The notes under the pieces: generated by a model | Told to the model about the DNA's origin: nothing | The model's input: only the letters and a program-made list of their open reading frames with translations | Database searches by the model: none | Translations under genes and position numbers: made by a program | Shown here: positions 4,471-64,000 of the stretch, one piece after another | Layout: each line of letters starts with the position of its first letter | How positions within the stretch are numbered: the first letter of the stretch is position 1 | DNA from: Mucilaginibacter arboris | GTDB lineage: Bacteria > Bacteroidota > Bacteroidia > Sphingobacteriales > Sphingobacteriaceae | DNA: 64,000 nt | Reading direction: 5' to 3' | NCBI RefSeq assembly: GCF_009754915.1 | Contig: NZ_WPIK01000001.1 | Location: 124,001 to 188,000, forward strand

Positions 4471-4674
4471 ATGTGCTTATGGTAACCACATCTTCTTTAA
4501 AAACATTTGCGAAAGCATCATAATTACAACGATAAAAGGAGTATCAGGTAAAACGGATACTTCTTTTACCACCTAAAAATTAGTAAGCTTTTTATATAGG
4601 GCCAACTGCATTTAACAACTTTGTTACAGCCCCGTAAATGATTTAAGTTTTAATTTGGGCAATGATTAAAATTT

Positions 4675-4707
4675 GCCGGTAAAAGAAGCAATGCTTCTTT
4701 TACCGGC
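4675..4707. repeat. GAAGCAT hairpin (near-perfect palindrome)
   Basis: GCCGGTAAAAGAAGCA (4675-4690) is followed at once by its reverse complement preceded by one base, giving 16-base perfect arms around a single A. It is immediately followed by CAAAAAACAGG, resembling the sister form of the repeat. It lies 27 bases before the M28 peptidase start. Confidence 0.88.
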
Positions 4708-6131: not shown

Positions 6132-6155
6132 GATGCTTCTTTTATCAGGTAAAAG
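6132..6155. repeat. GATGCTTCTTTTATC repeat with partial second arm
   Basis: The exact 12-mer ATGCTTCTTTTA (6133-6144) is followed by TCAGG and TAAAAG, the outside-in form of the repeat (TTTTA-short head-TAAAA). It lies between the M28 gene and the small minus-strand gene that ends at 6159. Confidence 0.8.
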
Positions 6156-7676: not shown

Positions 7677-7690
7677 GGTAAAAGAAGCAT
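7677..7690 (+). repeat. GGTAAAAGAAGCAT repeat
   Basis: Exact 14-base copy occupying the spacer between the acyltransferase start codon and the Nudix stop codon, within an apparent minus-strand operon. Confidence 0.85.
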
Positions 7691-8274: not shown

Positions 8275-8317
8275 GGTAAAAGAAGCATTGGATTATAGAC
8301 CGAATGCTTCTTTTACC
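8275..8317. repeat. GAAGCAT hairpin overlapping the metK 3' end
   Basis: GGTAAAAGAAGCATT (8275-8289) and AATGCTTCTTTTACC (8303-8317) are perfect 15-base arms around a 13-base loop. The right arm lies inside metK and encodes its VKEAFGL end, while the left arm is intergenic. Confidence 0.88.
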
Positions 8318-19210: not shown

Positions 19211-19751
19211 AATTGAAGAAACCACCGTAGTACACGAGTTTTCTCCTAGGATGTACCAGCAATTTCAGGAAATTGTAAAGCGTTATCCGCCAGAACAACC
19301 TAAAGCAGCCTTATTGCCAATTTTACATGTAGTACAGGCAGCGTTTGGCTGGCTTAGTGTTGATGGAATGGACAAAGTTGCTTCTTACTTAGATATTCAG
19401 CCGATTGAGGTTTACGAGGTCGCTTCTTTTTATACCATGTATTTTTTACGTCCACAGGGAAAATACATGCTGGAAGTTTGCCGTACAGGCCCTTGTTGTT
19501 TGGTAGGGGCAGAAAAGATCATGAAATACATAGAACACAAGTTAGGCGTAAAAGAAGGTGAGGTAACGCCTGATGGACTTTTTAGCTGGAGAGGTGTAGA
19601 ATGTTTGGCTGCCTGTGGCTTTGCTCCGGTTTTACAGATCGGGCCCGAATACACTTTCTATGAAAATTTGACGGAAGAAAAAGTTGATCAGCTGATAGAG
19701 AAATTAGGTGGTAAAAGAAGCATCGAGGCAAATCAGCAACTGACAAATTAA
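19203..19751 (+). CDS. nuoE: NADH-quinone oxidoreductase subunit E
   Basis: A 182-residue thioredoxin-like subunit binding the N1a 2Fe-2S cluster; the four cysteines are in CRTGPCC and CLAACGF. The C-terminus ends GGKRSIEANQQLTN, where GGKRSI is encoded by an exact repeat copy (19713-19726), so the last residues look like a repeat-derived extension. nuoF starts one base later. Confidence 0.96.
   Translation: MLKIEETTVVHEFSPRMYQQFQEIVKRYPPEQPKAALLPILHVVQAAFGWLSVDGMDKVASYLDIQPIEVYEVASFYTMYFLRPQGKYMLEVCRTGPCCLVGAEKIMKYIEHKLGVKEGEVTPDGLFSWRGVECLAACGFAPVLQIGPEYTFYENLTEEKVDQLIEKLGGKRSIEANQQLTN
19713..19726 (+). repeat. GGTAAAAGAAGCAT repeat inside nuoE
   Basis: Exact 14-base copy read in the KRSI frame at the C-terminus of NuoE. 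It is the only exact copy between 8.3 and 21.1 kb. Confidence 0.85.
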
Positions 19752-21125: not shown

Positions 21126-21168
21126 AGGTGATAAAAGAAGCATCGTTAGCATGCTTCTTTTATCACCT
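21126..21168. repeat. GAAGCAT hairpin between nuoF and nuoG
   Basis: AGGTGATAAAAGAAGCAT (21126-21143) and its perfect 18-base reverse complement (21151-21168) around a 7-base loop, followed by AAAAATAAA. The same 18-base arms occur at 37237-37329. It lies inside the 101-base nuoF-nuoG gap and could weaken transcription past nuoF. Confidence 0.9.
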
Positions 21169-26619: not shown

Positions 26620-28080
26620 ATGACGCTTATTCTACTCTTATTACCCGTATTTGCAGCTCTTGTCCTGTTATTGTTAAAAGGCGAAACCGTAAAAATTGCA
26701 GCGCTGTTTTTTGCCATTGCAGAATTAGTTGTTGCCGGAATCATGGTTGCTGGATTCCATGCAGATGCTTCTTATCAATATGTAATAGATTATCTCTGGA
26801 TTGCGGATCTGGGAATTCATTTTAAAGCTGGAGTTGATGGCATTAGCTTGGTTATGGTAGTCCTGACTACCTTATTAGTTCCGCTAATTATTCTTTCTAC
26901 CTTCAAGCATCAATACAATAAACCTTCAACCTTCTACGCATTAATCCTGTTCATGCAAACCGGCTTGCTGCTGGTTTTTACGGCGATGGACGCTTTCCTG
27001 TTTTATGTTGGATGGGAAGTTGCTTTAATCCCGATTTATTTTATCTGTGCTTTATGGGGAGGCGAAAACCGGATTAAAGTAACCATCAAGTTTTTCATTT
27101 ACACGTTTGCCGGTTCGCTGTTTATGCTGCTTGGAATTATCTACCTGTACCTGCAAACTCCTGATAAAACCTTCGACATTCAGGCTTTTTATAACCTAAA
27201 CTTTGATCCTTATCACCAGGGATGGATATTCTGGGCTTTCTTTATTGCGTTTGCCATTAAAATGCCCATATTTCCTTTTCATACCTGGCAGCCGGATACT
27301 TATACAACTGCTCCAACCGGTGGAACAATGATGCTATCAGGAATTATGCTGAAAATGGGCATTTACGGGGCCATTCGTTGGTTAATTCCAATTGCTCCGC
27401 TTGGATTTGCGCATTGGCAAAGTACCGTAATTATTTTAGCTGTAATCGGAATTGTTTATGCTTCGCTGATTGCTTTCAACCAAAAAGACGCAAAACGTTT
27501 AATTGCTTATTCTTCCATCGCACACGTTGGTTTAATTGCTGCCGGGATTTTTGCCTGGAATATGCAAGGTGTGCAAGGTGCAGTTTTCCAGATGTTAAGT
27601 CACGGAATTAATGTAATTGGATTATTTTTCGTAATTGACATTATCAGCAGAAGGATCAACACACGCGATATTAGTTTAATGGGGGGAATTGCTAAAAGTG
27701 CTCCGTTTCTTGCTACTTCTTTTATCATCATAATTATGGGGACAGTTGCGCTTCCTTTAACTAATGGTTTTATAGGTGAGTTTTTACTGATGAACGGCAT
27801 TTATCAATACAACATTTGGTTAGTTGCTATTGCAGGGTTAACGATTATTTTTGGCGCCGTTTATATGCTTCGGATGTACAAGCAAATGATGCAGGGAGAA
27901 ACCAGTTCACTCACAGCTTCTTTTACCGATGTTTCCGGCTCAGAAAAAATAGTTTTAGTTATAATTTGTGCTTTAGTAATTGTGCTCGGCGTATATCCGC
28001 AAATGGTTACGCATCTTTCAGAAGCAAGCGTAAACAACCTGATCGAACAGGTAAACCAAAAATTAATATCAGCCAAATAA
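26620..28080 (+). CDS. nuoM: NADH-quinone oxidoreductase subunit M
   Basis: A 486-residue antiporter-like subunit. YVGWEVALIPIYFICALWG carries the key glutamate; PIFPFHTWQPDTYTTAPTGG and AKRLIAYSSIAHVGLI are typical. nuoN starts four bases after its stop. Confidence 0.98.
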   Translation: MTLILLLLPVFAALVLLLLKGETVKIAALFFAIAELVVAGIMVAGFHADASYQYVIDYLWIADLGIHFKAGVDGISLVMVVLTTLLVPLIILSTFKHQYNKPSTFYALILFMQTGLLLVFTAMDAFLFYVGWEVALIPIYFICALWGGENRIKVTIKFFIYTFAGSLFMLLGIIYLYLQTPDKTFDIQAFYNLNFDPYHQGWIFWAFFIAFAIKMPIFPFHTWQPDTYTTAPTGGTMMLSGIMLKMGIYGAIRWLIPIAPLGFAHWQSTVIILAVIGIVYASLIAFNQKDAKRLIAYSSIAHVGLIAAGIFAWNMQGVQGAVFQMLSHGINVIGLFFVIDIISRRINTRDISLMGGIAKSAPFLATSFIIIIMGTVALPLTNGFIGEFLLMNGIYQYNIWLVAIAGLTIIFGAVYMLRMYKQMMQGETSSLTASFTDVSGSEKIVLVIICALVIVLGVYPQMVTHLSEASVNNLIEQVNQKLISAK

Positions 28081-32124: not shown

Positions 32125-32829
32125 ATGTACTTGTTTTATGCTCCTGATTTAAATACAGCAGATTGCTTTTTAAATGAAGAAGAAAGCAGGCATTGCATTA
32201 AAGTGCTTCGTTTGCAAAAAGAAGACGTGATTGAGGTTATTGATGGAAAAGGAAACTTTTATCATGCAAAAATAACCGCTCCCGATCCTAAAAAAACAAG
32301 GTTTGTTGTACTGCAAACACAGCAGGAATTTGGTAAACGAAACCACTATTTGCACATAGCAGTTGCACCAACCAAAAATATTGAACGGCTGGAATGGTTC
32401 ATAGAAAAAGCTACCGAAATCGGGATTGATGAAATTACGCCAATTCTTTGCCAGCGTTCCGAACGTAAAATTATCAATCACGAAAGGCTGAACAAGGTAA
32501 TTACTCCTGCTGTAAAACAATCGCTTAAAGCTTATCATCCCCAGTTAAACCCGCTTACCAATTTATCAAGTTTGCTTAAAGATCAAACTCAAGCACAAAA
32601 ATGGATTGCCCATTGTAACGATGGAGAAAAAGTATCGATAAAAGAAGTATTAATCCCACAAAAAAAATATTTGGTACTGATTGGCCCTGAAGGTGATTTT
32701 TCTCCGCCGGAAATAAATACCGCTTTAGAAAATGGATTTCAAACCATAACTTTAGGTAATAGTCGTTTAAGAACAGAAACGGCTGCACTCGAAGCTTGTT
32801 TTGAAGTTAATTTTTTAAACCGCTTATGA
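32125..32829 (+). CDS. rsmE: 16S rRNA (uracil(1498)-N(3))-methyltransferase
   Basis: A 234-residue SPOUT methyltransferase that methylates U1498 of 16S rRNA. An N-terminal PUA-like part (RHCIKVLRLQKEDVIEVIDG) is followed by the knotted domain with LIGPEGDFSPPEI and LGNSRLRTETAALEA. It overlaps the next gene by four bases (ATGA). Confidence 0.95.
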   Translation: MYLFYAPDLNTADCFLNEEESRHCIKVLRLQKEDVIEVIDGKGNFYHAKITAPDPKKTRFVVLQTQQEFGKRNHYLHIAVAPTKNIERLEWFIEKATEIGIDEITPILCQRSERKIINHERLNKVITPAVKQSLKAYHPQLNPLTNLSSLLKDQTQAQKWIAHCNDGEKVSIKEVLIPQKKYLVLIGPEGDFSPPEINTALENGFQTITLGNSRLRTETAALEACFEVNFLNRL

Positions 32830-33527: not shown

Positions 33528-33645
33528 ATGCTTTTTTTATCGGCATAAAATTAGCGCTTGTTCAAATTTAATATCAGCATTATTGGTAATGCTTCTTTTA
33601 TGCCTGTATTATTTGATCATGTTTTTTATGCGATAAAAGAAGCAT
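33528..33645. repeat. Cluster of three GAAGCAT repeat copies
   Basis: A one-mismatch copy at 33528-33550 (ATGCTTTTTTTA-TCGGCA-TAAAA), an exact copy at 33589-33600 (ATGCTTCTTTTA) and an inverted exact copy at 33634-33645 (TAAAAGAAGCAT). The last two form a loose hairpin with a 33-base loop. It fills the spacer after the DUF4159 gene. Confidence 0.85.
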
Positions 33646-33646
33646 C

Positions 33647-33707
33647 TAAATCATTAAAAAGCGAAAGGCTTCATTTAAAATGAAGCCTTTCGCTTTTTAA
33701 TGATTTA
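33647..33707. terminator. Bidirectional terminator, 30-base perfect arms
   Basis: A perfect 61-base palindrome centred on 33677, with arms 33647-33676 and 33678-33707. The core GCGAAAGGCTTC is GC-rich and flanked by A and T tracts on both sides. It separates the convergent DUF4159 and gldJ genes and is placed to stop both. Confidence 0.92.
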
Positions 33708-37238: not shown

Positions 37239-37329
37239 GTGATAAAAGAAGCATTGTTGCCGTTATCATTCCAACGATAGGAGGAATCTTTATCAAAACG
37301 ATAGGTTTAAAATGCTTCTTTTATCACCT
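37237..37329. repeat. GAAGCAT hairpin enclosing a GACGATAGGAG-family copy
   Basis: Outer arms 37237-37254 and 37312-37329 are the same perfect 18-base pair as at 21126-21168. The 57-base loop contains a fragment (37262-37294, with CCAACGATAGGAGGAATCTT) of the other repeat family. Followed by AAAAATTATT. It separates convergent ispF and the GapN-like gene. Confidence 0.9.
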
Positions 37330-37403
37330 AAAAATTATTATTCTTTTTGAAGGAAGATTTCTCCCATGGGATCGAAATAACAAAACATACTTCTTTTATC
37401 CGC

Positions 37404-39064: not shown

Positions 39065-39096
39065 GATGCTTCTTTTACCGGTAAAAAATCAGCATC
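39065..39096. repeat. Full outside-in repeat element
   Basis: GATGCTTCTTTTACC (39065-39079) meets GGTAAAAAATCAGCATC (39080-39096): an imperfect palindrome with head ACCGGT. It may show the complete unit of the family. It fills the 79-base gap between the transporter and GapN-like genes. Confidence 0.85.
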
Positions 39097-40482: not shown

Positions 40483-41145
40483 TTATCTACAGCTTTTTAC
40501 TAATTCATGTGCTTCTTTTGTGGCAGTAAAAAGCTCATCATAAAGCTTTCCTTCCATTACTTTTTTACTGATGAGTTTGCTCCCTAAACCGACAGCGCTT
40601 ACGCCAGCTTTAAACCAGCCGGAAATGTTTTCTTTTGTTAAATCTACACCTCCCGTTGGAATAAAAAGCTGACCAGGAAATAATTCTTTGATAGAAGTTA
40701 AAAAAGCTTCACCCAAAATATTTGCCGGAAAAAGCTTGATTAAAGCGGCTGAATTTTCTTGTGCGAGAAAAATTTCCGTCGGCGTCATACAACCTGGAAT
40801 CCAAAGTAACTCTGCTTCTAAAGCCATCTGCCCTACTTTCGGGTTTACAATCGGGCTAACTAAAAAATCTGCTCCGGCTTTCAGAAAATCTTCTGCTTCT
40901 TTTACCGACTTAATTGTTCCGATACCTAATTCCAGGTCAGGCATTTCTTCGTTTGCCAGCTCCCGCAATAATTTAAAGTTCTCTAAAGCTTCCGGCCCGC
41001 GATTGGTATATTCAAAAACCCTTACGCCTGCTTTGTAAATGGTTCTTGTTATTTCTAAACTGACTTCAGGGTCTCTATAAAAAAACAAAGGCAAGGTGCC
41101 CTGCTCTAAAATCTGGTTTAAAGAATGCTCTTTTTTACTGTTCAT
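40483..41145 (-). CDS. eda: 2-keto-3-deoxy-6-phosphogluconate aldolase
   Basis: A 220-residue class I aldolase splitting KDPG to pyruvate and glyceraldehyde-3-phosphate. GIGTIKSVKEAEDFLKAGAD, FLVSPIVNP, and the Schiff-base region LIKLFPANILG (lysine) with IPTGGVDLTKENISGWFKAG are the family motifs. It overlaps the kinase gene by 11 bases, so the two are translationally coupled. Confidence 0.94.
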   Translation of the reverse strand: MNSKKEHSLNQILEQGTLPLFFYRDPEVSLEITRTIYKAGVRVFEYTNRGPEALENFKLLRELANEEMPDLELGIGTIKSVKEAEDFLKAGADFLVSPIVNPKVGQMALEAELLWIPGCMTPTEIFLAQENSAALIKLFPANILGEAFLTSIKELFPGQLFIPTGGVDLTKENISGWFKAGVSAVGLGSKLISKKVMEGKLYDELFTATKEAHELVKSCR

Positions 41146-42148
41146 TTTTAATGATTTTTTTTACTTCGTCCGCACTCATTGTCGTGGCATCGCTTTCAAT
41201 AAATAATTTGCCGTAAGCTGCTGCTGTGGCAAACTCCAATGCTTCTTTTACCGGTTGTTTTTGGTACAAACCATAAATTAAGCCTGCCATAAAGCAATCG
41301 CCGCTTCCAACTTTATCTACAATATGAGCCGCTGAATATTCTTTCGATACTTCCAGTTTCCCGTCGGTGTACAAGGTAGTGTAATATTGGATACCAGGAT
41401 CACCAAAACGAAAAGTATTAGCTACATATTTACATTTTGGATAAGTTTTAATAAGTGCTTCTGAAGTTTTTATCGCATGATTCAGGTAATTTTCTTTGGT
41501 ACCGATTTCGTGTATATTTTCATCTACTGCCGTTCCCAGCATTTGATTTGCTGCCCAAACATTGCCCATAATTAGATCGCAATATTGTGCCAGATTAGGC
41601 ATAATTTCAATCGGCTGTTTACCATACTTCCACAATTTTGCGCGATAATTCAAATCCAGCGAAATGAAGATATTTTTTTGAGAAGCCACTTTTAAAGCTT
41701 CTTCACAAACATCTGCTACATTTTGAGTGATAGCCGGACAAATTGCGCTGAAATGAAACCAGGAAACATCTTCAAAAACAGCATTCCAATCTATCGTTCC
41801 AGGTTGCAATTCTGCATACGAAGAATAAGCACGATCGTAAATTACGCCTGCATTTTTAAGGTCTTTTCCCTTCGGAAGATAGTACGTTCCAATTCGGTTT
41901 CCCTGATAAATAATGGCAGAAGTATCAACTTTTCTTTCCTGAAGATACTGAACGATCTGTTCCGACAACATGTTTTCCGGCAAAGCTGTTAAATAAGCCG
42001 AAGGCAAATCCCAAAGCGCCAAAGCTGTAGCAACATTCAATTCTGCACCGCCAACATAAAAAGGAAGGGAATTTTCTTTTAGCCAGTTTCCTTCGGTATC
42101 CGGACAAATCCGCAGCAACAATTCGCCGAAACTGAGTATTTTGCTCAT
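41135..42148 (-). CDS. kdgK: 2-keto-3-deoxygluconate kinase (PfkB family)
   Basis: Start chosen at ATG 42148 (MSKILSFGELLLRICP), two bases from the uxaC stop; a 20-residue longer frame would overlap uxaC. The 337-residue PfkB fold has the substrate part VGGAELNVATALALW and the catalytic DKVGSGDCFMAGLIYGL. It phosphorylates KDG made by UxaA. An exact repeat copy (41239-41250) encodes PVKEALEF near the end. Confidence 0.92.
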   Translation of the reverse strand: MSKILSFGELLLRICPDTEGNWLKENSLPFYVGGAELNVATALALWDLPSAYLTALPENMLSEQIVQYLQERKVDTSAIIYQGNRIGTYYLPKGKDLKNAGVIYDRAYSSYAELQPGTIDWNAVFEDVSWFHFSAICPAITQNVADVCEEALKVASQKNIFISLDLNYRAKLWKYGKQPIEIMPNLAQYCDLIMGNVWAANQMLGTAVDENIHEIGTKENYLNHAIKTSEALIKTYPKCKYVANTFRFGDPGIQYYTTLYTDGKLEVSKEYSAAHIVDKVGSGDCFMAGLIYGLYQKQPVKEALEFATAAAYGKLFIESDATTMSADEVKKIIKNEQ

Positions 42149-43602: not shown

Positions 43603-43616
43603 GGTAAAAGAAGCAT
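43603..43616 (+). repeat. GGTAAAAGAAGCAT repeat
   Basis: Exact copy in the 72-base gap between uxaC start and uxaA stop, the only gap between 42 and 46 kb longer than four bases. Confidence 0.85.
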
Positions 43617-45278: not shown

Positions 45279-46793
45279 TTAAATTTTGTTTTTTACAGAT
45301 AGCCCTTCAGCCGCTTTTAAAGCCCCTTCGCTGGTTATTTTAGCAAAATATTGTTGTACGGCATCTTCAAATCCTGGCAGAAGCGTTAAATCTGTTCCCC
45401 AAAGCTCGGTATTATTTAATATGGTATAAGTCAAAATATCAGCAGGAATACTGTTTTTAAGGTCATAAAAAAAGCGTGCCTGATCATCATTCACCGGATA
45501 ACTTTTTCCGTTTACCCCGCCGTAAAATTTGCCGTTTTCTTCTTTCTGAACCTGCATAAAAGCGATGTACGCAGCAAAACCTAAAGCAATACGGGCAGGT
45601 ATTTGATCGGATTTTTGATAATGCTTTACCAAAACAGGCACAACACGCATTTTAAGCTTGGCGGAAAATTGTACCGTAATAGCAATCCATTGATGTTTAA
45701 TGTGCGGATTACGGAAACGATCTAAAACCTGGCCTGCAAACCCATCCGTTTGCTGTTTGCTTACTTCGTACGGAATTGACGATGCTATTTCTTCTTTCAT
45801 CAACTCACTTACAAAACTCGAAAACGTTTCATCGTCCATTGCTTCTTTTACCGTATTAAAACCTGCAAGAAAAGCCAGGCCACAACTTAATGTATGCGTA
45901 CCATTTAACATTCTCAGTTTTAGTTCCCGGTAAATTTCAATATCCGGCGCAATAATTACACCTTTATCAGCTTCAGCAAAACTTAGAACAGCCTTTACTT
46001 TTTCATTGCCTTCTATCGCCCATAAGCGGTAAACTTCGGAAACGGTCAACAGCTTATCTTCATAACCGGCTTTTTCCTGGAAAGCAGAAACCGTTTCTGC
46101 ATCAGGCTTTCCGGGAACAATCCGATCAACTAATGAATTGCAGAAAGAGTTACTTTTATCCAACCAATCTATCAGTGCTGCATCCAACTGGTTAAAAGCA
46201 GCTAATTCCAACACGATCGATTTTAATTTATCACCGTTGCCAACAATTAATTCTGTTGGCACAATCACCATTCCGCTTTCTTCGCTTCCGTTAAAGGCTT
46301 TATATCGTTCTACTAAAAAAGCTAATAATTTACCTGGAAAAGAAGTTGGCGGACTTAATTTAATATCTTCTTTAACCAACTGAATCCCAACTTCTGTAGT
46401 GTTGGAAATCACAATTTTCATTTCCGGTTTTTGGGCACATTTTAAAATCTCCTCCCAATGTTCTCCTGCTGATAAAACACGGCTGATAGCAGAACAGATA
46501 ATATTCTCTTCTATTTTCTGTCCGTTTTCAATGCCTTTTACACATAAAGTATATAAGCCGTCCTGATCGTCAAATTCGGAAGAGCTTCCTGTTGAAGTTG
46601 ATTTTACCACCACAATCCGTCCGTTAAACACACCTTCACGATTGGCTTTATCAATAAAATAATCTGGCAAACCTCTAAGCAATACACCTGTTCCAAACTG
46701 TAAAACTTTCTCCGGAAGGCTTAAAATTGCTTCATCAGGAACGATTACTTCCTGCGACTGAATTTCTTTTAAATTAGACTTTGATAAAATCAT
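45279..46793 (-). CDS. uxaB: Tagaturonate reductase
   Basis: A 504-residue long-chain mannitol-dehydrogenase-type enzyme reducing tagaturonate to altronate with NADH. LQFGTGVLLRGLPDYFIDKA is the nucleotide-binding start; KLRMLNGTHTLSCGLAFLAG carries the catalytic lysine region. Family neighbours reduce fructuronate, but the uxaA/uxaC partners favour tagaturonate. The 158-base space upstream contains a repeat copy and could hold its own promoter. Confidence 0.94.
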   Translation of the reverse strand: MILSKSNLKEIQSQEVIVPDEAILSLPEKVLQFGTGVLLRGLPDYFIDKANREGVFNGRIVVVKSTSTGSSSEFDDQDGLYTLCVKGIENGQKIEENIICSAISRVLSAGEHWEEILKCAQKPEMKIVISNTTEVGIQLVKEDIKLSPPTSFPGKLLAFLVERYKAFNGSEESGMVIVPTELIVGNGDKLKSIVLELAAFNQLDAALIDWLDKSNSFCNSLVDRIVPGKPDAETVSAFQEKAGYEDKLLTVSEVYRLWAIEGNEKVKAVLSFAEADKGVIIAPDIEIYRELKLRMLNGTHTLSCGLAFLAGFNTVKEAMDDETFSSFVSELMKEEIASSIPYEVSKQQTDGFAGQVLDRFRNPHIKHQWIAITVQFSAKLKMRVVPVLVKHYQKSDQIPARIALGFAAYIAFMQVQKEENGKFYGGVNGKSYPVNDDQARFFYDLKNSIPADILTYTILNNTELWGTDLTLLPGFEDAVQQYFAKITSEGALKAAEGLSVKNKI

Positions 46794-46901: not shown

Positions 46902-46924
46902 ATGCTTCTTTTATCGGGTTAAAA
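46902..46924. repeat. ATGCTTCTTTTA repeat with partial second arm
   Basis: Exact 12-mer followed by TCGGGT and TAAAA (outside-in form). It lies in the 158-base gap between the pectinesterase and uxaB. Confidence 0.8.
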
Positions 46925-46951: not shown

Positions 46952-47977
46952 TTATTTCAAAGGGTCCCACTGATTGTCAAAAGCCCAGTTTGCGGTAATT
47001 TGTTGTGCTGATGGCGCGTGTTCAGCTTCTATTAGATTGTTTTTTATCCAGGCATAATCTCCGCCTGAATGATGGCAATTGTAGTAATAAGAGCGGTTTC
47101 CCCATTGCACACCTTTCGAACTGGCTGCCTGGTAAATTGGCGCATCCGCCATTTCTTTAGCAAACAGGCAATCAATCAGATAAAACTGCGAATCGAGGTG
47201 ATATCTTCCTAACTTAAATCCTTCATCTCCACGAAAAACACAATTTTTAAGCACTGTTTTTTCATTCTTATTTTTGGAGCCATCATGCCAGATTGCCGCT
47301 TCTTTATTATGACAGATAAAAGTACAGTTTTCGGCATAAGCCCAGCCGCGCGGACAGTAGAAATCTACGCCACCTTCCATCGTGCAGTTTTGGAAATAAT
47401 ACATGCCGGAAACACCATTCCACGGACTAACGGTATCGCCTCCATAAGCTCGCAAAACGCAATTAATCACTTTTAATCGCGTAGTTTGGGTTGACCGCAG
47501 CGCCATTTGATGGCCGTTTTTAGTTATTGTTTTTTGTGGAGATCCTTTTCCGTTCGGACAATCAAGCAACGTATCTCTTTGAAAATCCCTTCCGTAAGAA
47601 TTAATAATGCTTAAGTTTTTTAACGTGATGTCGTTTCCGCTTAAATTAATCGTTGCCACGCCCCAATCGCCCGTATTATTGCACAACCACATATCCCTCG
47701 AAATTGCCTGCGTAATTATTGTATTGCTGCTGTTATCGCCTTGCAAAACAATATGGTTTTTGGTGATGGAAACCTTTTCCGCGTAAGTTCCTTTTCGAAT
47801 TAAAATAACCCGGTCTGTTGCTGATGAATCAGGCAAACTATTAATTGCTGCCTGTATCGTTTTAAAATCTCCTTTTCCGTTTGCATCGACCACAATTTGT
47901 TTTTGTGCCGATGCTTCTTTTATCAGCATAAAATTAAGAATGATGAAAAAACATCGGTAAAAGAAGCATTTTCTCAT
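46952..47977 (-). CDS. Secreted pectinesterase (CE8)
   Basis: A 341-residue right-handed beta-helix enzyme that removes methyl groups from pectin. IVVDANGKGDFKTIQAAINS opens the family; YCPRGWAYAENC and WHDGSKN are further parts. The signal peptide (about residues 1-25, MRKCFFYRCFFIILNF then MLIKEASAQ) is encoded almost wholly by two inverted copies of the dispersed repeat. An inner ATG (residue 17) would give a truncated signal. Confidence 0.9.
   Translation of the reverse strand: MRKCFFYRCFFIILNFMLIKEASAQKQIVVDANGKGDFKTIQAAINSLPDSSATDRVILIRKGTYAEKVSITKNHIVLQGDNSSNTIITQAISRDMWLCNNTGDWGVATINLSGNDITLKNLSIINSYGRDFQRDTLLDCPNGKGSPQKTITKNGHQMALRSTQTTRLKVINCVLRAYGGDTVSPWNGVSGMYYFQNCTMEGGVDFYCPRGWAYAENCTFICHNKEAAIWHDGSKNKNEKTVLKNCVFRGDEGFKLGRYHLDSQFYLIDCLFAKEMADAPIYQAASSKGVQWGNRSYYYNCHHSGGDYAWIKNNLIEAEHAPSAQQITANWAFDNQWDPLK
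47911..47969. repeat. Inverted pair of repeats within a signal peptide
   Basis: Exact copies ATGCTTCTTTTA (47911-47922) and TAAAAGAAGCAT (47958-47969) face each other across 35 bases. On the gene strand they read as CFF(Y) near the start and (L)IKEA at the signal-peptide cleavage region. Confidence 0.88.
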
Positions 47978-49900: not shown

Positions 49901-51553
49901 TTATTTCATAACCAGGGCCTTGCTATCGGCGCCGGCGCTAAATGCTGTTTTGGTTTTTGCTTTGGAAGCATCTGTATTGGTAACTTTTATGCCGCTGCTT
50001 TGTCCGTTTACATTAAAAAGCAGATCGGCATTGGAGTTATATTGAAGATTATCCAAAGAAATTAAACTTGAATTCTGAATATTTACAACCGGGTTAGTAT
50101 CAGCCACAATTACCCTGACATTTTTAAAATTGATGTTTTTCGCTTCCTGCAAATCGATACCTTTTTTAGCTGTTAAAACCATATTGTCCATATAAATATC
50201 GCTGATTTTCATTTCCGGCAAACCACGGATAAAAACAGCTTTGGAAGCCCCATTACAAACAATATTGCTGATGTGAAAATCACGAAAGATCGGTGTTTCT
50301 TCGGTTACTGGCAATAATACCACTTTTGGTGCTTCGCGGTTTTCGCCAGCCAACGGAACGGGATCTTTTGCCATGTAATACATATCAAACAAAATAGCTT
50401 CGCCGCCAATATCTTTCATGGCGATGTCTTTTACAAATATTTTTTCTACAATTCCGCCGCGGCCACGGTTGGTTTTAAAACGAAGGCCAACGTCTGTTCC
50501 GATAAAAGAACAGTTGGAAACAAACAAATTACGTGCGCCGCCGCTCATTTCGCTGCCGATAACAAAACCACCATGTGCATGATAGACAATACAGTTTTTT
50601 ACGATCATATTTTCGGTTGGCTTGCCCCTTTTGCGCCCATCGGCATCGCGCCCGGATTTAATGCAGATCCCATCATCGCCTACATCGAATGTACTTCCTT
50701 CAAGCAGTACATTTTTACAAGATTCTACATCTATCCCATCACCATTTTGTGCATACCACGGGTTTTTTGCATAAACGTTTCTAACGGTTAAATCTTCGCA
50801 TAATAAAGGATGCAAGCACCAGGCAGGAGAATTTTGAAAGGTTACGCCTTCCAGCAAAACTCTTTTACAATTGGTAAGGACTAATAAATTCGGACGTAAA
50901 AAATCTTTAATATCTGCGTAATCTGCAGCAGTTTTACCCGGAAGCAAGACACCTGCGTTTTCTATTTTTGATCCTTTTAAAGATTGTTCGGATGGATACC
51001 AGGTTTTTTTATCATCACTTAACAAACCGCCTGAAGCTACTTTATTTTTCCATTGCGTTTCTGTCAGCTTATCTTTTTTAACCATTCGCCAGGCATCGCC
51101 GTTCCCATCAATAATTCCGGTTCCTGTTATGGCAATATTGGTAAGGTTAGTACCTGATATGGGTGACTGGTTTCTTACGGCCGGCCTTCCTTCCCAGTTT
51201 CCTTCAACTAATTTATATTGCTTAAAATCATCTGTAAACTGCAAAACTGCATCTCTGTTAATATGTAGGTTTACATTACTTTTCATTTCGACCGGACCGG
51301 TAATCCACATCCCGCCCGGAACTAAAACCACACCACCGCCTTTATTGCTGCAAGCAGTAATGGCATCATTAATACTTTTGGTATTTAGTGTAATGCCATC
51401 TGCTTTTGCACCATATTTTAAGATGTTGAAAGTATCGGTCTTAAAACTGGTTTTCTGTATTTGGGGGAGTTTATTCCAACTATAAGATTGTGAAAATACT
51501 TCTTTGGAGAAGCACATAAAAACTATCGATAAAAGAAGTATTGATCTTTTCAT
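49901..51553 (-). CDS. Secreted polygalacturonase (GH28)
   Basis: A 550-residue right-handed beta-helix glycosidase with signal peptide MKRSILLLSIVFMCFSKEVF. GAKADGITLNTKSINDAI opens the family; NGDGIDVESC and GDDGICIKSG carry the catalytic aspartates, HGGFVIGSEMSGG the conserved histidine and RFKTNRGRGG the substrate loop. It cuts galacturonate linkages in pectin. It is the promoter-proximal gene of the run. A one-mismatch repeat (51530-51541) encodes ILLLS of the signal. Confidence 0.94.
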   Translation of the reverse strand: MKRSILLLSIVFMCFSKEVFSQSYSWNKLPQIQKTSFKTDTFNILKYGAKADGITLNTKSINDAITACSNKGGGVVLVPGGMWITGPVEMKSNVNLHINRDAVLQFTDDFKQYKLVEGNWEGRPAVRNQSPISGTNLTNIAITGTGIIDGNGDAWRMVKKDKLTETQWKNKVASGGLLSDDKKTWYPSEQSLKGSKIENAGVLLPGKTAADYADIKDFLRPNLLVLTNCKRVLLEGVTFQNSPAWCLHPLLCEDLTVRNVYAKNPWYAQNGDGIDVESCKNVLLEGSTFDVGDDGICIKSGRDADGRKRGKPTENMIVKNCIVYHAHGGFVIGSEMSGGARNLFVSNCSFIGTDVGLRFKTNRGRGGIVEKIFVKDIAMKDIGGEAILFDMYYMAKDPVPLAGENREAPKVVLLPVTEETPIFRDFHISNIVCNGASKAVFIRGLPEMKISDIYMDNMVLTAKKGIDLQEAKNINFKNVRVIVADTNPVVNIQNSSLISLDNLQYNSNADLLFNVNGQSSGIKVTNTDASKAKTKTAFSAGADSKALVMK

Positions 51554-53456: not shown

Positions 53457-53498
53457 ATGCTTCTTTTACAATACTTTTTTAAGCAATACTTCTTTTAT
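53457..53498. repeat. Two tandem repeat copies before the permease gene
   Basis: Exact ATGCTTCTTTTA (53457-53468) and the variant ATACTTCTTTTA (53486-53497), in the same orientation 29 bases apart; decayed relatives lie between and after. They occupy most of the 71-base gap before the MBL gene. Confidence 0.82.
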
Positions 53499-54233: not shown

Positions 54234-56078
54234 TTACTTGTTTTTAAAGTAAACCGTAAAACGTGTCCCTTTGTTTAATTCGCTTTTTACTTCAATTTTG
54301 CCTCCTAAGGCTGTAATCTGTGCCTGCACAATATACAAGCCTAAACCCTTACCTTCTGCTTTGTTGCTAAAGCGTTTGTACAAACCAAAAAGTTGTTGCC
54401 CGTATCTGTTTAAATCGATGCCAATGCCGTTATCTTCAAAAATTAAAACAGCATGGCCCTGCTCCTGATAAGTTTTTATGTTGATAACCAGCCTTCGTTC
54501 GTCGCTTCTGTATTTCAGTGCGTTAGATAAAAAGTTCAGTAAAATACTTTCTAAATAACTTTCTTTAAACAGGATTACTGGCGCTTCGGCAAAATCTTCT
54601 TCTATTTGCGCGTTTGCAGTTTCAATCAAGTAAGCAAGGGATGCTTTTGCTTTGCCCCAAACTTCGGCAATAACTAAAGGTTGGGCAATTTTATCGTCCT
54701 CACTTTTAATCATTAAAATATCAATGATATCATTTACCGTGATATTTAATTTATTGGTCGAGCTTTTTACGGCCTCAATCAGTTCCAGCGTATCTTCATC
54801 TTTAATTGCTTCGGTATCCAGCAAACTTAAAAGCCCGGTTAAATTAGCCAGCGGTGCGCGTAAATTGTGCGAGATAACGTAAGAAAACTGTTTCAGTTCA
54901 TTGTTGCTTTCCTGCAATTCGCGGACGAAGTTTTCATTTTCTGCTTCCCGGCTTTTACGTGCGGAAACATCCCGGTAAACAGCTACAAAATGGGTGATGT
55001 TGCCTTGACCGTCTTCTACCGGACTAATGCTGTAATCTACCCAATAATCGCTTTTGTTATTTTTATAGTTGATTAAACGGGTTTCAAATGTTTCGGGTTG
55101 AAAATGATTAACGGCAGATGCTTCTTTTACCGGGTATTTTTTATGAAGCAATGCTGGCTTTTGTCCTACAATTTCCTGTGCAGCATAACCGGTTAAATGG
55201 TTAAAAGCGGCATTGCTGTAAACAATTTCTGAATTATAAAAATCTGTTGAACTGTTTTTGGTGATGATGATACCATCCGCACTGTTGTTAATGGCCGATT
55301 GCAATAAGAGCAACTGCTGCTGAACCTCGTCTGTGATGATGGGTTGCTGCTGCTCATTTTGTTTCGTTAAATCAACAATAACAGCAACCCGGCAAGTTTT
55401 GTTATTAAACTGAAACAGGCTGGTAAAAACCTCCACTGCCGTTACTTCCCCTCTTTTATTTACATGCTGCCACTTGCCGGCAAAGCTTTTGTTACTGGCT
55501 GCTTCTGTTTTTTGCTGTAAATCAAAAATGGTCATTGCAGCAAACTCAACCCAGGTGTAACCGTAGAAATGTTCGGCAGCTTCGTTTGTTAGCAGTAGTT
55601 TTTTATTGTCAACCTCGTAAACCAGCACCGGCAAAGGATTGCGGTTAAACAGGTTTTTATATTGTTGTCCGGCTGTAGCAACCTCCAGGTTTTTTATCCG
55701 CCGGGCTACTGCATGTGTAATGCTTTTATATAAAATACTACTGTTTAGGTTCTCTTTTGCAATTACATCCTGCGCGCCTGCAAGTATCGCTTCTGTAGCA
55801 AGTGTTTCATTCGGATGGTCTGTTAAAATAATAACTGCCGGATGATTTGCTTTCTTTAAAAGTTTGTTAAATAATTCTTTTTCGGATGTTTGTTCAAACT
55901 TCAGGCTGATAATTAATACATCAAACGCAACCGAAGAATTAATTTCTACAGCTTTTGTTAAAAACTGGGAATAAACAATAACCGGATTTTGGAAGAATTT
56001 ATTAATATAGCTGTTCAGGAGCACAAAATTTGCTGCGTCTTCTTCAACAATCAAAATATTTAAGGTATGCCTGCCCAT
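54234..56078 (-). CDS. PAS-containing histidine kinase with degenerate receiver domain
   Basis: A 614-residue kinase. Residues 1-125 resemble a receiver domain (ILIVEEDAANF, VIILTD, LAGAQDVIAK) but the phospho-acceptor position is serine 58 (FDVLIIS) instead of aspartate. Two PAS domains follow (about 140-250 and 265-380). HisKA carries ISHNLRAPLANL; the ATPase part has LLNFLSNALKY, FEDNGIGIDL and GKGLGLYIVQ. No transmembrane segment is visible, so it is a cytoplasmic sensor. No response regulator is adjacent. An exact repeat copy (55118-55129) encodes VKEAS in the second PAS domain. Confidence 0.9.
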   Translation of the reverse strand: MGRHTLNILIVEEDAANFVLLNSYINKFFQNPVIVYSQFLTKAVEINSSVAFDVLIISLKFEQTSEKELFNKLLKKANHPAVIILTDHPNETLATEAILAGAQDVIAKENLNSSILYKSITHAVARRIKNLEVATAGQQYKNLFNRNPLPVLVYEVDNKKLLLTNEAAEHFYGYTWVEFAAMTIFDLQQKTEAASNKSFAGKWQHVNKRGEVTAVEVFTSLFQFNNKTCRVAVIVDLTKQNEQQQPIITDEVQQQLLLLQSAINNSADGIIITKNSSTDFYNSEIVYSNAAFNHLTGYAAQEIVGQKPALLHKKYPVKEASAVNHFQPETFETRLINYKNNKSDYWVDYSISPVEDGQGNITHFVAVYRDVSARKSREAENENFVRELQESNNELKQFSYVISHNLRAPLANLTGLLSLLDTEAIKDEDTLELIEAVKSSTNKLNITVNDIIDILMIKSEDDKIAQPLVIAEVWGKAKASLAYLIETANAQIEEDFAEAPVILFKESYLESILLNFLSNALKYRSDERRLVINIKTYQEQGHAVLIFEDNGIGIDLNRYGQQLFGLYKRFSNKAEGKGLGLYIVQAQITALGGKIEVKSELNKGTRFTVYFKNK

Positions 56079-56454: not shown

Positions 56455-57402
56455 ATGAAATTTAAATTAGGCGACTTTGTGCGTTTTGTGGAAGAGAAAA
56501 GAGAAGGTTTTATCACCCGGATTATCGACGGGCAAACGATAGGTGTAACGGGTGAGGATGATTTTGAAATACCAGTTCTGGCTTCAAAAGTTACTTCTGT
56601 ACATGGCCGCGAAGCAGCCGTAGCAGCAGCAAAAGAACAGGAAGAAATTGAAGAAGCAGCTAACCAGGAATTTATTTCTAAAGGGATTTACCTGGCTGCC
56701 GTTCCGGAGAAACAGGTAACTTCCGTGGTTCAGTTTTACCTGATCAACCAAACTTCTTATACTTTACTTGCTTCTTTTACCACCGAAAAAAGCCAGGAAT
56801 TTAAAGGGGAATTTGCCGGGATACTTTTACCGCGAACAGCCGTAAAGGTTTTTTCGGCCGGCTTGCCCGATATTTCTATCTGGCCCAAATTCATCTTCCA
56901 AATTCTATATCACAGCAAACAAACAGTAGATTTTTTAGATCCGCTGATTTATACCGAAAGGTTTAAAGCCAAAGATTTTGCAGGATCAAAAACAGCGGTA
57001 CACTTATTAAACCAGCAAGGCTGGCAGTTTCAATTAGATATTGGAGCAGTAAAAGTAGATGCACAAAAGCTGAAGGAAAGCTTTTTTAAATCGCCGGAAG
57101 AGAAAAAAATGGTAGAAAAACCAGCTAAAGAAATTGACCTGCATATCGAAAAACTTCGTGATGATTACCAATTTTTAAACAGCAACGAGATCTTGAAAAC
57201 GCAGCTGGAGCGTTTTCAGAAAACACTTGACGGGGCAATCGTACATCAATTGCCTTCCATCGTTTTTATTCATGGCGTTGGTAACGGTATCCTCCGGCAC
57301 GAAATCCATAAAGTGGTTAGCAAGCATCCGCAGGTAAAAACGTTTATGGACGCCCGCAAAGAAAAATTTGGCTATGGCGCTACAGAAGTTGTTTTAAAGT
57401 GA
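56455..57402 (+). CDS. DUF2027 and Smr domain protein
   Basis: A 315-residue protein. Residues about 1-200 match DUF2027 (MKFKLGDFVRFVEEKREGFI, IGVTGEDDFEIPV, a beta-rich middle); about 230-315 form an Smr/MutS2 domain with IDLHIEKL, VFIHGVGNGILRHEIH and GYGATEVVLK. Smr domains nick or bind nucleic acid; the HGVGNG loop is intact. The architecture is known in Bacteroidota but its role is not established. Confidence 0.88.
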   Translation: MKFKLGDFVRFVEEKREGFITRIIDGQTIGVTGEDDFEIPVLASKVTSVHGREAAVAAAKEQEEIEEAANQEFISKGIYLAAVPEKQVTSVVQFYLINQTSYTLLASFTTEKSQEFKGEFAGILLPRTAVKVFSAGLPDISIWPKFIFQILYHSKQTVDFLDPLIYTERFKAKDFAGSKTAVHLLNQQGWQFQLDIGAVKVDAQKLKESFFKSPEEKKMVEKPAKEIDLHIEKLRDDYQFLNSNEILKTQLERFQKTLDGAIVHQLPSIVFIHGVGNGILRHEIHKVVSKHPQVKTFMDARKEKFGYGATEVVLK

Positions 57403-57411
57403 TTTTATACC

Positions 57412-57426
57412 GGTAAAAACAGTATC
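57412..57426 (+). repeat. GGTAAAAACAGTATC sister-form repeat
   Basis: Exact copy of the sister form in the 34-base gap between the Smr-domain gene and the GT39 gene, preceded by ATACC. Confidence 0.75.
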
Positions 57427-57436: not shown

Positions 57437-59119
57437 ATGCCTTCGTTTACTTCAACTCCTATTTTTAAATGGCTGTATTTTTTTATCGGTGCCGCTGTTC
57501 TGCTTAATTTCAGCGGATTGTTTATTACCATTCTTGGTTTAGACGGGCCATTATATGCCTGTATTGCCAAAAGCATGGTGCAGCGGCACGATTATGTAAA
57601 CCTGTTTTCGCAGGGGAAAGACTGGCTGGATAAACCGCATTTTCCATTCTGGGTTACGGCTTTATCATTTAACCTTTTTGGTTTTACAACCTGGGCTTAC
57701 AAGCTTCCTGCTATTTTATTTGTTTTGATGGGAGGAGTTTACACTTATCTCTTCTGCAAAAACCTGTACAATAAAGAGGTTGCGTTGTGGTCGGTTTTGA
57801 TTTTTTTAACTGCTGAACATCTCATCATTTCCAACAATGATGTTCGTGCCGAACCTTATTTAACGGGTTTAATTATCGCTTCGGTTTATCATTTCTATAA
57901 AACGGTTGCTAAAAACAGCATTGGACATTTAATTATCGCCTGCGTTTTTGCCGCTTGCGCCGTAATGACGAAAGGTATTTTTGCCCTGATCCCGATTTTT
58001 GGCGCTTTTGCCGGAGAATATATCCTCACCAAAAACTGGAAACAGCTTTTTAACTGGCGATGGCTGCTTGCTTTTATTTTGGTGATGCTGTTTTTAGCAT
58101 CCGAAATTTACTGCTTGTACGAGCAGTTTGATCTGCACCCGGAGAAATTAGTTTTCGATCAGCATAACGTTTCCGGTATTAAATTCTTTTTCTGGGACAG
58201 CCAGTTTGGCCGCTTCTTTAATAACGGGCCGATAAAAGGGCACGGCGATCCGTTTTTCTTTTTTCATACCTTGCTTTGGGCGTTTATTCCCTGGTCGGTT
58301 TTGCTTTATATTGCGGTTGTTCAGTTCTTCCGAAATCAACACAAACAAAAACGTGAATGGTATTGCATCTGCGGAGCGCTGCTTACTTTCTTTGTTTTTT
58401 CGGCCTCCAAATTCCAACTGCCGCATTATATTACCATTGTGTTTCCGTTTTTTGCGATCATCACGGCGCAGTATTTAATTGGCATCAAAACAGCAAAAGG
58501 ATTGCAGGCTATCCGCATTACACAAAGCGCGGTTTTAGCTTTGCTGATCCTGATCGTTCTGCTTCTCCAGTATTTTTACCGGGCAGAAAATTTTACGTTC
58601 TTTACCATTTTGCTGCTGCTCATTACCGCCGTCCTCCTCATTTTTGTATCGGTAAAAGAAGCATGGGGCAGTAAATATCAACTGTTATTTCAATCGGTTT
58701 TGGTTTCGATATTCATCAACCTTTACCTCAACCTCAATTTTTATCCTTCCCTTTTACATTATCAATCTGGCAGCGAAGCCGCATTTTATATCGATAAAAA
58801 CAGCATGGGTAATTTGCCGGTAGCACAATTGCAGGAAGAAGAATATTCGCACGCCTTGGAATTTTACTTAAACCGGCCGCTTTATTTAATTAATGAAGAC
58901 GGAAAAGGGAACCTTCCTTCAAAACCTTATTTGTTGTATGCTTCGAAAGAAAACATAAACCAAATAGTGGCAAAAGGCTGGAAAATCAGACCGGTGAAAA
59001 CGTTTAATGATGAGTTGGTAACGCGTTTAACAGGAAAGTTTTTGAACCGGAAAACGCGGAAAGAACAACTGGGGCAGAAAGACCTGGTTTTGGTGGAAAA
59101 GGATGTTTTGGCAAAATAA
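57437..59119 (+). CDS. GT39-family membrane glycosyltransferase (ArnT-like)
   Basis: A 560-residue protein with about 12 hydrophobic helices. LGLDGPLYACIAKSM carries the catalytic-type aspartate of GT39/ArnT enzymes, and WLDKPHFPFWVTALSFNLFG and ISNNDVRAEPYLTGLIIA follow. These move sugars from lipid carriers to lipid A or other acceptors; the acceptor is unknown. An exact repeat (58653-58664) encodes VKEAW. Confidence 0.87.
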   Translation: MPSFTSTPIFKWLYFFIGAAVLLNFSGLFITILGLDGPLYACIAKSMVQRHDYVNLFSQGKDWLDKPHFPFWVTALSFNLFGFTTWAYKLPAILFVLMGGVYTYLFCKNLYNKEVALWSVLIFLTAEHLIISNNDVRAEPYLTGLIIASVYHFYKTVAKNSIGHLIIACVFAACAVMTKGIFALIPIFGAFAGEYILTKNWKQLFNWRWLLAFILVMLFLASEIYCLYEQFDLHPEKLVFDQHNVSGIKFFFWDSQFGRFFNNGPIKGHGDPFFFFHTLLWAFIPWSVLLYIAVVQFFRNQHKQKREWYCICGALLTFFVFSASKFQLPHYITIVFPFFAIITAQYLIGIKTAKGLQAIRITQSAVLALLILIVLLLQYFYRAENFTFFTILLLLITAVLLIFVSVKEAWGSKYQLLFQSVLVSIFINLYLNLNFYPSLLHYQSGSEAAFYIDKNSMGNLPVAQLQEEEYSHALEFYLNRPLYLINEDGKGNLPSKPYLLYASKENINQIVAKGWKIRPVKTFNDELVTRLTGKFLNRKTRKEQLGQKDLVLVEKDVLAK

Positions 59120-59704: not shown

Positions 59705-60439
59705 CTAATTAGTAAGGGCAATATCCACCACTTGCCCAATAATAATCAGCGCCGGATACGTTAACTTCTGTGTTTCCGCCATTTCCGGTAAATCTTTTAC
59801 CAAACCTTTTACAGATTTCTGCTTGGGTAAAGAAGCATGCTGGATAATTGCCGCCGGAACTGAACCTTTTCCTGCTTCTATATAAGTTGCTGCAATTTCC
59901 TGCAGCTTTTTCATGCCCATATAAATTACAACCGTTGCGTTGCTTTGCATGGCTAAACGCAGATCAGCAGAAAGCGAGCCGTCTTTTTTCGTTCCGGTTA
60001 TCGCCCAAACGCTTTCGCTTAAATTGCGGTGCGTTAGAGGAATATCTTCAAACCCGGAAGCCTGCATACTCGTAATTCCCGGGATAAAATAGGTTTTAAT
60101 ACCATGTTCACGGGCAAATAAAATTTCTTCAAATCCTCGCCCAAAAATAAACGGGTCGCCGCCTTTTAAGCGAATGACTTGTCCTTTTGCAAGAGCATAT
60201 TGTTTAATTAGTTCCAGGATCTTTTCCTGAGGCGTATATTCTCCGTAAGGTTGTTTGCCTACATAAACCAGCTCGCAATCTTTAGGCGCCAAATCCAGCA
60301 ATTGCTTATTGGCCAGGTTATCGTACAAAATAACTTTGGCCTGCTGCAATAATTTGTAAGCTTTAACGGTGATCAATTCAGGATCACCCGGACCAGCGCC
60401 AACAACATATAATTCAGGTTCTTTAGTTTCTTCGCCCAT
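59705..60439 (-). CDS. cobA: Uroporphyrinogen-III C-methyltransferase
   Basis: A 244-residue SAM-dependent enzyme that makes precorrin-2 for siroheme or cobalamin. VGAGPGDPELITVKAYKLLQ, VRLKGGDPFIFGRGFEE and GITSMQASGFEDIPLTHR are diagnostic. It is the stand-alone form without a CysG dehydrogenase part. The upstream repeat copy runs into the start codon: its terminal AT forms the first two bases of ATG at 60439. Confidence 0.95.
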   Translation of the reverse strand: MGEETKEPELYVVGAGPGDPELITVKAYKLLQQAKVILYDNLANKQLLDLAPKDCELVYVGKQPYGEYTPQEKILELIKQYALAKGQVIRLKGGDPFIFGRGFEEILFAREHGIKTYFIPGITSMQASGFEDIPLTHRNLSESVWAITGTKKDGSLSADLRLAMQSNATVVIYMGMKKLQEIAATYIEAGKGSVPAAIIQHASLPKQKSVKGLVKDLPEMAETQKLTYPALIIIGQVVDIALTN

Positions 60440-60451
60440 GCTTCTTTTACC
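60438..60451 (-). repeat. Repeat copy supplying the cobA start codon
   Basis: On the minus strand GGTAAAAGAAGCAT is followed by GGGCGAA; the ATG formed is the cobA start. The purine run AAAAGAAG lies only two bases before the ATG, too close for a normal ribosome-binding site. Confidence 0.85.
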
Positions 60452-61873: not shown

Positions 61874-61887
61874 GGTAAAAACAGCAT
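61874..61887 (+). repeat. GGTAAAAACAGCAT hybrid-form repeat
   Basis: A form that combines AACAG of the sister motif with GCAT of the main motif, 47 bases before the SMP-30 gene. Confidence 0.6.
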
Positions 61888-62906: not shown

Positions 62907-62936
62907 ATACTGTTTTTATGCCGGTAAAAACAGTAT
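62907..62936. repeat. Sister-form hairpin between convergent genes
   Basis: ATACTGTTTTTA (62907-62918), loop TGCCGG, TAAAAACAGTAT (62925-62936): perfect 12-base arms. It fills the gap between the SMP-30 gene and the first Uma2 gene and starts on the stop codon of the latter. Probably acts as a terminator for both. Confidence 0.85.
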
Positions 62937-63493
62937 CAGGAAAATAGCTTTTGCAAATCGATTTGCAAACCAGGCAAAGTATTTAAGGTGATGGTGCCGT
63001 TTTGATGCTCTTTTTGCTGTAAGATAAATTGTTTATCGTTTAAAACATAAACTTCTGCATTTTTGGATAAAGGGTCGATAATCAAATATTCCTTTACGCC
63101 GTAACGTTCGTAAAAATCTTTTTTATGTATTAAATCATAATAAGCGGTGGCAGGCGAAAGGGTTTCGATAACCAAATCAGGTGCACCATGGATACGATCG
63201 TAAAGTAATTCAACTTTGCTTTCGTTAGAGATGTAAATCAAATCAGGCTGAAAGGTATTTTTTTCATCCAGCACAACATCAACAGGATAAAACAAACAAA
63301 GTCCTCCTAAACCGTTTTTTTCTAAATGTTGAGAGATCAACATAAAAAGTTTCCCATTAACCAACTGATGATTAAGCGAAAAAATTGGCGGCATCACTTT
63401 TTCTCCATCAATCAATTGAAACTGCGGGCCTACTTCCAGCGAATGGTAATCTAATTCGGTATATTTCTTTTTCTCCGCAACTGGCATAATCAA
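62936..63493 (-). CDS. Uma2-family endonuclease-fold protein (first copy)
   Basis: A 185-residue PD-(D/E)XK-fold protein. FQLIDGEKVMPPIFSLNH, FYPVDVVLDEKNTFQPDLIY, APDLVIETLSPATAYYDL and YERYGVKEYLIIDP are the Uma2 pattern, with aspartate, glutamate and the later lysine of the active centre. The function of the family is unsettled. It is clearly paralogous to the next gene, with the same ending LPGLQIDLQKLFS. Confidence 0.87.
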   Translation of the reverse strand: MIMPVAEKKKYTELDYHSLEVGPQFQLIDGEKVMPPIFSLNHQLVNGKLFMLISQHLEKNGLGGLCLFYPVDVVLDEKNTFQPDLIYISNESKVELLYDRIHGAPDLVIETLSPATAYYDLIHKKDFYERYGVKEYLIIDPLSKNAEVYVLNDKQFILQQKEHQNGTITLNTLPGLQIDLQKLFS

Positions 63494-63511
63494 GTTTATA
63501 AATTTTTAGAT

Positions 63512-63525
63512 GGTAAAAGAAGCAT
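63512..63525 (+). repeat. GGTAAAAGAAGCAT repeat at the end of the second Uma2 gene
   Basis: Exact copy abutting the TGA stop of the Uma2 copy at 63525. The first Uma2 gene has the sister form at the matching place (62923-62936). Confidence 0.88.
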
Positions 63526-64000
63526 CAGGAAAACAGCTTTTGCAGGTCAATTTGTAAACCAGGCAAGGTATTTAAGTTGATCGTATCATTTTGCTTTTGC
63601 TGTAGCTCAAATTTATTTTCTCTTAAAACATAAGCTTCAGCATAGAAATGTTTTGGATCAATAATCAAATATTCCTTTACGCCGTAACGTTCGTAAAAAT
63701 TTTTCTTCTGCTGCAAATCATAATAAGCGGTAGAAGGAGAAAGAATTTCGACGATCAAATCAGGTGCGCCCATAATCCGGTCATGAAACAGCTCCTTTTT
63801 TCTTTCGCCTGAAATGTAGATTAAATCAGTTTGAAAAATGTTTTCTTCATCTAAAACTACATCCAACGGAGCATATAAACATAGTCCGTCAGCATTAATT
63901 TTTTCTGAAAAAGCGTCTATAATTTTAAAAATCCGTGCTGATAATAGCTGATGATAAGAACTTGGCGATGGCGACATAACTAAATCTCCGTTAATGAGTT
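63525..64000 (-). CDS. Uma2-family endonuclease-fold protein (second copy), N-terminus cut by window end
   Basis: The frame is open through the window edge: before the inner ATG at 63977 it continues with LINGDLVMSPSPSSYHQL, the usual Uma2 start region, so the true start lies beyond 64000. LDEENIFQTDLIYISGERK, APDLIVEILSPSTAYYDL and YERYGVKEYLIIDP match the first copy closely. The pair is a tandem duplication. Confidence 0.87.
   Translation of the reverse strand, partial: LINGDLVMSPSPSSYHQLLSARIFKIIDAFSEKINADGLCLYAPLDVVLDEENIFQTDLIYISGERKKELFHDRIMGAPDLIVEILSPSTAYYDLQQKKNFYERYGVKEYLIIDPKHFYAEAYVLRENKFELQQKQNDTINLNTLPGLQIDLQKLFS

Follow-up and report, generated by a model that had tools for sequence, protein, structure and literature searches.

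A 13-letter repeat with two core spellings, confined to one Sphingobacteriaceae genus, as a candidate DNA-uptake-like signal

Introduction

The window analysed here is the whole 64-kb stretch G000:C1:124001-188000 of a 4.16-Mb draft genome (G000). On its minus strand two tandem Uma2 genes both end in a C-terminal LQKLFS and a TGA stop; for gene 62936-63493 the PF05685 (Uma2) match was confirmed. The stop codon of one is followed 3' by TGATACTGTTTTTACC (62923-62938(-)), that of the other by TGATGCTTCTTTTACC (63512-63527(-)). A first-pass annotation regarded these as two forms of one repeat behind both stops and, apart from small corrections, the letters are indeed present at these places. What kind of repeat is this, why does it come in two spellings, and what might read it?

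Results

The window contains 37 strict copies of the repeat with its tract (see below). The word TGMTTCTTTTACC, with at most one mismatch, matches 32 times in the window vs. 0.32 times in shuffles. The sites are listed below, with core forms named by the letters at position 1 (G or A) and at positions 4-5 (TC or GT).

505-517 (-): core, G-TC form
1523-1535 (+): core, G-GT form
4558-4570 (+): core, A-TC form
4678-4690 (-): core, G-TC form, inverted pair with 4692
4692-4704 (+): core, G-TC form, inverted pair with 4678
6134-6146 (+): core, G-TC form
7677-7689 (-): core, G-TC form
8275-8287 (-): core, G-TC form, inverted pair with 8305
8305-8317 (+): core, G-TC form
19710-19722 (-): core, G-TC form, within ORF 19203-19751
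21130-21142 (-): core, G-TC form, inverted pair with 21152
21152-21164 (+): core, G-TC form
24838-24850 (+): core, G-GT form
27714-27726 (+): core, A-TC form
32637-32649 (-): core, A-TC form (first-pass coordinates 32639-32650)
33632-33644 (-): core, G-TC form
37241-37253 (-): core, G-TC form, inverted pair with 37313
37313-37325 (+): core, G-TC form
37388-37400 (+): core, A-TC form
39067-39079 (+): core, G-TC form
40894-40906 (+): core, G-TC form
41240-41252 (+): core, G-TC form
43603-43615 (-): core, G-TC form
45840-45852 (+): core, G-TC form
46903-46915 (+): core, G-TC form
47912-47924 (+): core, G-TC form
47956-47968 (-): core, G-TC form
51528-51540 (-): core, A-TC form (first-pass coordinates 51530-51541)
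53486-53497 (+): degraded A-TC copy with TATG instead of TAYC
55119-55131 (+): core, G-TC form
56769-56781 (+): core, G-TC form
57412-57424 (-): core, A-GT form
58651-58663 (-): core, G-TC form
58793-58805 (-): core, G-GT form
60439-60451 (+): core, G-TC form
61874-61886 (-): core, G-GT hybrid
62907-62944 (no strand): inverted partner ATACTGTTTTTA..TAAAAACAGTAT, whose A-run is the tract of the 62923 site
62923-62935 (-): core, A-GT form, abutting the TGA of Uma2 gene 62936-63493
63512-63524 (-): core, G-TC form, abutting the TGA of the second Uma2 gene (63525 onward, extending past the window)

Among the hybrids reported earlier, ATGCTGTTTTTACC is present at 61874-61887(-). For the other, ATACTTCTTTTA, the picture is mixed: the occurrences at 51530-51541(-) and 32639-32650(-) are full members with a tract, but that at 53486-53497(+) reads ATACTTCTTTTATGAC and is a degraded copy. 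A perfect ATACTTCTTTTACC at 4557-4570(+) had been overlooked.

Genome-wide, TGCTTCTTTTACC occurs 628 times in G000 (reversed control 0). The genus was sampled by three genomes (G000, G001, and G002), partly metagenome assemblies, in which ATGCTTCTTTTAYC has 1357 (G000), 711 (G001), and 1479 (G002) copies, the reversed pattern being essentially absent. The first-pass annotation had allowed for a chance likeness if its sister form were not enriched across the genome; this form, TRCTGTTTTTAYC, is enriched, with 487 (G000), 584 (G001), and 651 (G002) copies and a reversed control of 0. A census on 1.03 Mb of G000, taken as stretches, yielded 555 strict copies, i.e., 0.54 per kb, which extrapolates to ~2,250 for the genome. 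In the other genomes sampled (118 of the family, others of the class, ~400 in all) ATGCTTCTTTTAYC was found only 0-3 times per genome, and the sister form at most 11 times per sampled genome of other genera; the pattern searches outside the genus covered 121, 61, and 295 genomes. The repeat is confined to one genus of the Sphingobacteriaceae. An unbiased survey of words in 17 usable samples and 80 loci (at most 20 kb per genome, so that rarer words could escape) revealed no comparable word elsewhere. Frequent words in Pinibacter, in Chitinophagaceae 26-R-25, and in the CTTCGACAAGCTC family were set aside as tandem heptamers or another dispersed repeat. Tandem arrays of heptamers (TAGGAAT/TAAGAAT) surround genes at the Chitinophagaceae loci L107 and L082.

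Alignment of the copies in 830 kb of G000 gave the consensus aTRCT[TC|GT]TTTTAYC, with a core word of 13 letters, followed by R-S-Y and then by a tract at positions 17-22. This tract switches as a unit between an A-run and a T-run, and G or C is almost never seen at positions 18-20. GCTTCTTTTA has 566 perfect copies; its 30 one-mismatch variants sum to 637, of which the accepted A form accounts for 130. The four combinations of G/A with TC/GT were counted 282, 61, 57, and 44 times in the 830 kb. All of them had been noted before, and each is enriched genome-wide. They carry the same 3' extension and tract and, therefore, belong to one family.

The two spellings at positions 4-5 are a true two-state switch. 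With the tract required, TC, GT, TT, and GC were observed 343, 101, 18, and 12 times in G000, whereas 264, 30, 93, and 85 are expected if the two positions were independent. The intermediates TT and GC are 5-14 times rarer than expected, and the same pattern holds for G001 and G002. The linkage of variable positions proposed in the first-pass annotation for a single family is borne out as well, since A at position 1 associates with GT at positions 4-5 in all three species (odds ratios 3.6, 5.0, and 6.2; Fisher p 4e-7, 2e-6, and 3e-5; these and the other statistics treat sites as independent). The linkage is seen separately in ORF sites and in intergenic sites. ORFs hold 68% of the GT copies and 36% of the TC copies (p 4e-10). 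Most coding form switches amount to one amino-acid change (e.g., ASFT to AVFT, LLL to LFL) and, therefore, coding context seems to pick between two forms that are both acceptable to the reader.

The repeat is enriched in non-coding DNA, yet many copies are coding: 242 of the 555 copies (44%) lie inside ORFs, on either strand, and ORFs, called by length without a gene finder, cover ~88% of the sequence. Orientation is balanced (306:322 and 690:667). The spread is near-Poisson (variance/mean 1.03 per 10 kb), and close neighbours (<100 bp) make up 9.7% of neighbour pairs. In the 1.03 Mb of G000, 19 out of 555 copies start flush behind a stop codon, whereas any other offset has ~2; the apparent cause is that the R-A ahead of the core in the consensus completes TGA or TAA.

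Other repeated structures were encountered as well. At 33647-33707 of the window, just past the copy at 33632, lies a perfect inverted repeat of 30 bp whose loop is a single base (TAAATCATTAAAAAGCGAAAGGCTTCATTT). A second dispersed family, GTCATTCCGACGATAGGAGGAATCTT-like and unrelated to the 13-letter word, forms inverted pairs (hairpin, REP-like) at 357-456, 4402-4456, and 37280-37364. Copies of the A-TC form lie near the Y1 (IS200-like) transposase loci L172 and L174; those at L172:1925 and 1991 form a tandem at a distance of 66 bp.

The origin of the copies was examined by aligning G000 with G001 over 243 kb (79% identity). Among the 126 G000 sites covered, 86 still have a family form in G001, 33 have decayed by substitution, and 7 are gapped; insertion-like events were found at none of the 126. 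In proteins of genera that lack the word, 13 of 15 alignments are ungapped at the site. Copies come about by point mutation rather than by insertion. At fixed positions of the core, identity between the two species is mostly 94-100% (81-88% for the last C); it is 81-94% at tract positions 18-20, compared with 72-77% for the flanks, and no more than 9% of random 13-mers match in full. At third codon positions, identity amounts to 95.3% inside the core and to 59.8% in the flanks (p 7e-37) and, therefore, this conservation acts at the DNA level.

The 119 ungapped pairs include 10 direct switches from TC to GT and 3 from GT to TC, and these 13 outnumber the intermediates (6 TC to TT). Switching of forms at the Uma2 loci between relatives, which had been put forward as something to look for, does occur: the first site reads TGATACTGTTTTTACC (ACTGT) in G000, TGATGCTTCTTTTACT (GCTTC) in G001, and TGATACTATTTTTACC (ACTAT) in the related locus L071.

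Two stretches are free of sites. One comprises 70.6 kb of G001 (G001:C1:49813-120467, L181-L184), where ~40 sites would be expected from the density in that genome. This stretch, an integrated mobile island of ~70 kb that stands out by its complete lack of the repeat, has genes for a TrwC relaxase, two tyrosine integrases, a serine recombinase, ArdC, and a type I RM system. The other, the first 20 kb of contig C8 (L242, G000:C8:1-20000), carries ParA, serine resolvase, and PAS/histidine-kinase genes and is likely a mobile element or plasmid belonging to the same genome as the window. The scarcity of the repeat in mobile DNA is thus seen in two cases only.

Discussion

The density of the copies, their lack of orientation bias, their excess in non-coding DNA, the ~10% of inverted pairs, the AT segment on the 3' side, and the mutational origin are all traits of uptake sequences (PMC1626085, PMC1939737). 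By this analogy the repeat is best read as a DNA-uptake-sequence-like signal that would be spread by biased transformation, with one putative receptor accepting two core spellings, and biased uptake of kin DNA with recombination is the most likely drive. We give this reading a probability of roughly 0.6. We infer three of its components, namely uptake as the drive, a single reader, and competence of the organism.

In such a scheme a putative surface or periplasmic receptor would prefer double-stranded DNA that carries the consensus core with an A- or T-tract 5 bases on. Signal-bearing fragments from lysed kin would be taken up, passing through ComEC, and be recombined into the chromosome with DprA and RecA. 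Near-consensus alleles would hence spread and decayed copies would be restored. The receptor would accept TC as the stronger, mostly intergenic spelling and GT as a usable alternative wherever this suits the encoded protein better. Together with a rejection of single-change intermediates, this would lead to two linked forms and to direct switches between them.

ComEC and DprA are encoded in the genus. Both are near-universal, so that their presence proves nothing. To our knowledge, all uptake-sequence systems characterised so far import DNA through machinery of the type IV pilus type. In the three genomes of the genus, PF00437 (type IV pilus/type II ATPase) has no match over the cut-off and PF00263 (secretin) has no match; the importer would, therefore, be non-canonical. 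A transformation machine that is independent of type IV pili has been described within the Bacteroidota for Riemerella anatipestifer (PMC8459023); DUF5689, the protein that Riemerella requires for this, is missing from the genus. In the open-access literature, strongly self-enriched uptake words are found only for the Pasteurellaceae and Neisseriaceae, two families that have type IV pili, and no uptake sequence was found there for Bacteroidetes/Bacteroidota or Pedobacter. By analogy, the repeat would work like an uptake sequence, though one that we keep apart from the pilus-dependent systems.

The closest likeness is with the uptake signal sequences (USS) of the Pasteurellaceae, of the Hin- and Apl-type, and with the uptake-sequence traits listed in the same study (PMC1626085): a non-palindromic core of ~10 bp with an AT-rich segment at a fixed 3' distance, thousands of copies in equal orientations, a non-coding excess with many coding copies, an origin by substitution rather than insertion, and sharing within a clade. 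However, the repeat described here has a different core and two alternative spellings per genome, and belongs to another phylum and to a genus without type IV pilus genes. The USS also has two AT-rich 3' segments ~12 bp apart, while we observe one tract (17-22) and no clear second. Among the Neisseriaceae, the DUS of Neisseria is read by the pilin ComP. The DUS and its dialects (PMC3630211) resemble the repeat in being genus-specific words spread by substitution with ~10% inverted pairs, the latter a proportion stated for known uptake sequences (PMC1939737). They are likewise depleted in integrated conjugative elements, and DUS absence has been used to find such elements (PMC7371117). Unlike our repeat, the Neisseria DUS lacks an AT segment (PMC1626085). 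Dialects of the Neisseriaceae also distinguish species, while our two forms share one genome and replace each other at individual sites.

The chief alternative is that the word is bound inside the cell by a protein that organises the chromosome or marks it as self (a nucleoid protein, a condensin loader, or a defence system that spares marked DNA) and is kept by selection at each site. Strong per-site conservation, even spread, and absence from mobile DNA would fit this equally well, as would an A-tract beside the core for a DNA-bending protein. However, ~2,250 near-random copies, of which about half dictate amino acids within ORFs, without domain structure or orientation bias, are less readily explained in this way, and sites bound by cellular proteins tend to follow a looser consensus (PMC1626085). 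We, therefore, consider this alternative unlikely, if worth keeping in mind.

It is much less probable that two reader proteins exist, one for TC and one for GT. Two states with strongly depleted intermediates, and a ratio of GT to TC that depends on the species (584 vs. 711 in G001, 487 vs. 1357 in G000), would agree with this. However, all forms share the flanking consensus and tract, they switch directly at orthologous sites, and coding context alone already shifts their ratio. The earlier suggestion that different proteins read different forms is, for these reasons, not upheld: the same extension in all forms and their replacement at the same place point to one reader protein with two accepted states. 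Reshaping of the forms by imported DNA is possible.

Copying of a REP/REPIN-like element by a RAYT (an IS200-like Y1 transposase) is more improbable still. Short, abundant, partly inversely paired repeats together with Y1_Tnp genes (one or two in each genome, some of them close to A-TC copies) bring REPs such as the GTAG/CGTC types (PMC3733652) to mind. However, the repeat is not palindromic, most copies are single and without a hairpin, about half lie in ORFs, copy number is independent of the transposase, and sites differ by substitution in otherwise alignable, often coding, DNA. The lack of insertion-like events among the 126 aligned sites largely refutes an insertion model.

The least probable function is that of a transcription terminator or other RNA-level signal behind genes: 19 of the 555 copies sit flush behind a stop codon and inverted pairs could form hairpins, but these stops are helped by the consensus R-A, most copies are unpaired, facing pairs are A-rich rather than T-rich on their 3' side, and strand symmetry between tandem genes (82 copies on the same strand, 72 on the opposite) and inside ORFs (95 and 106) refutes it as a general function, although paired copies may serve as terminators. 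A Chi-like recombination site was rejected given the lack of strand bias, overall or along GC skew (replication origin not located).

Implications

If the uptake reading is true, a clade-specific word in a Bacteroidota genus without pili would provide bait for the importer of the phylum. Somewhat short of even odds, and thus tentatively, the genus would represent pilus-independent, sequence-specific DNA import in Bacteroidota with two discrete core spellings, forbidden intermediates, and two exchanging "dialects" per genome. The coexisting spellings, the switches at orthologous sites, and the avoided intermediates would then form a natural experiment on the change of uptake dialects. The word may also mark foreign DNA, in that stretches without the repeat would be mobile elements.
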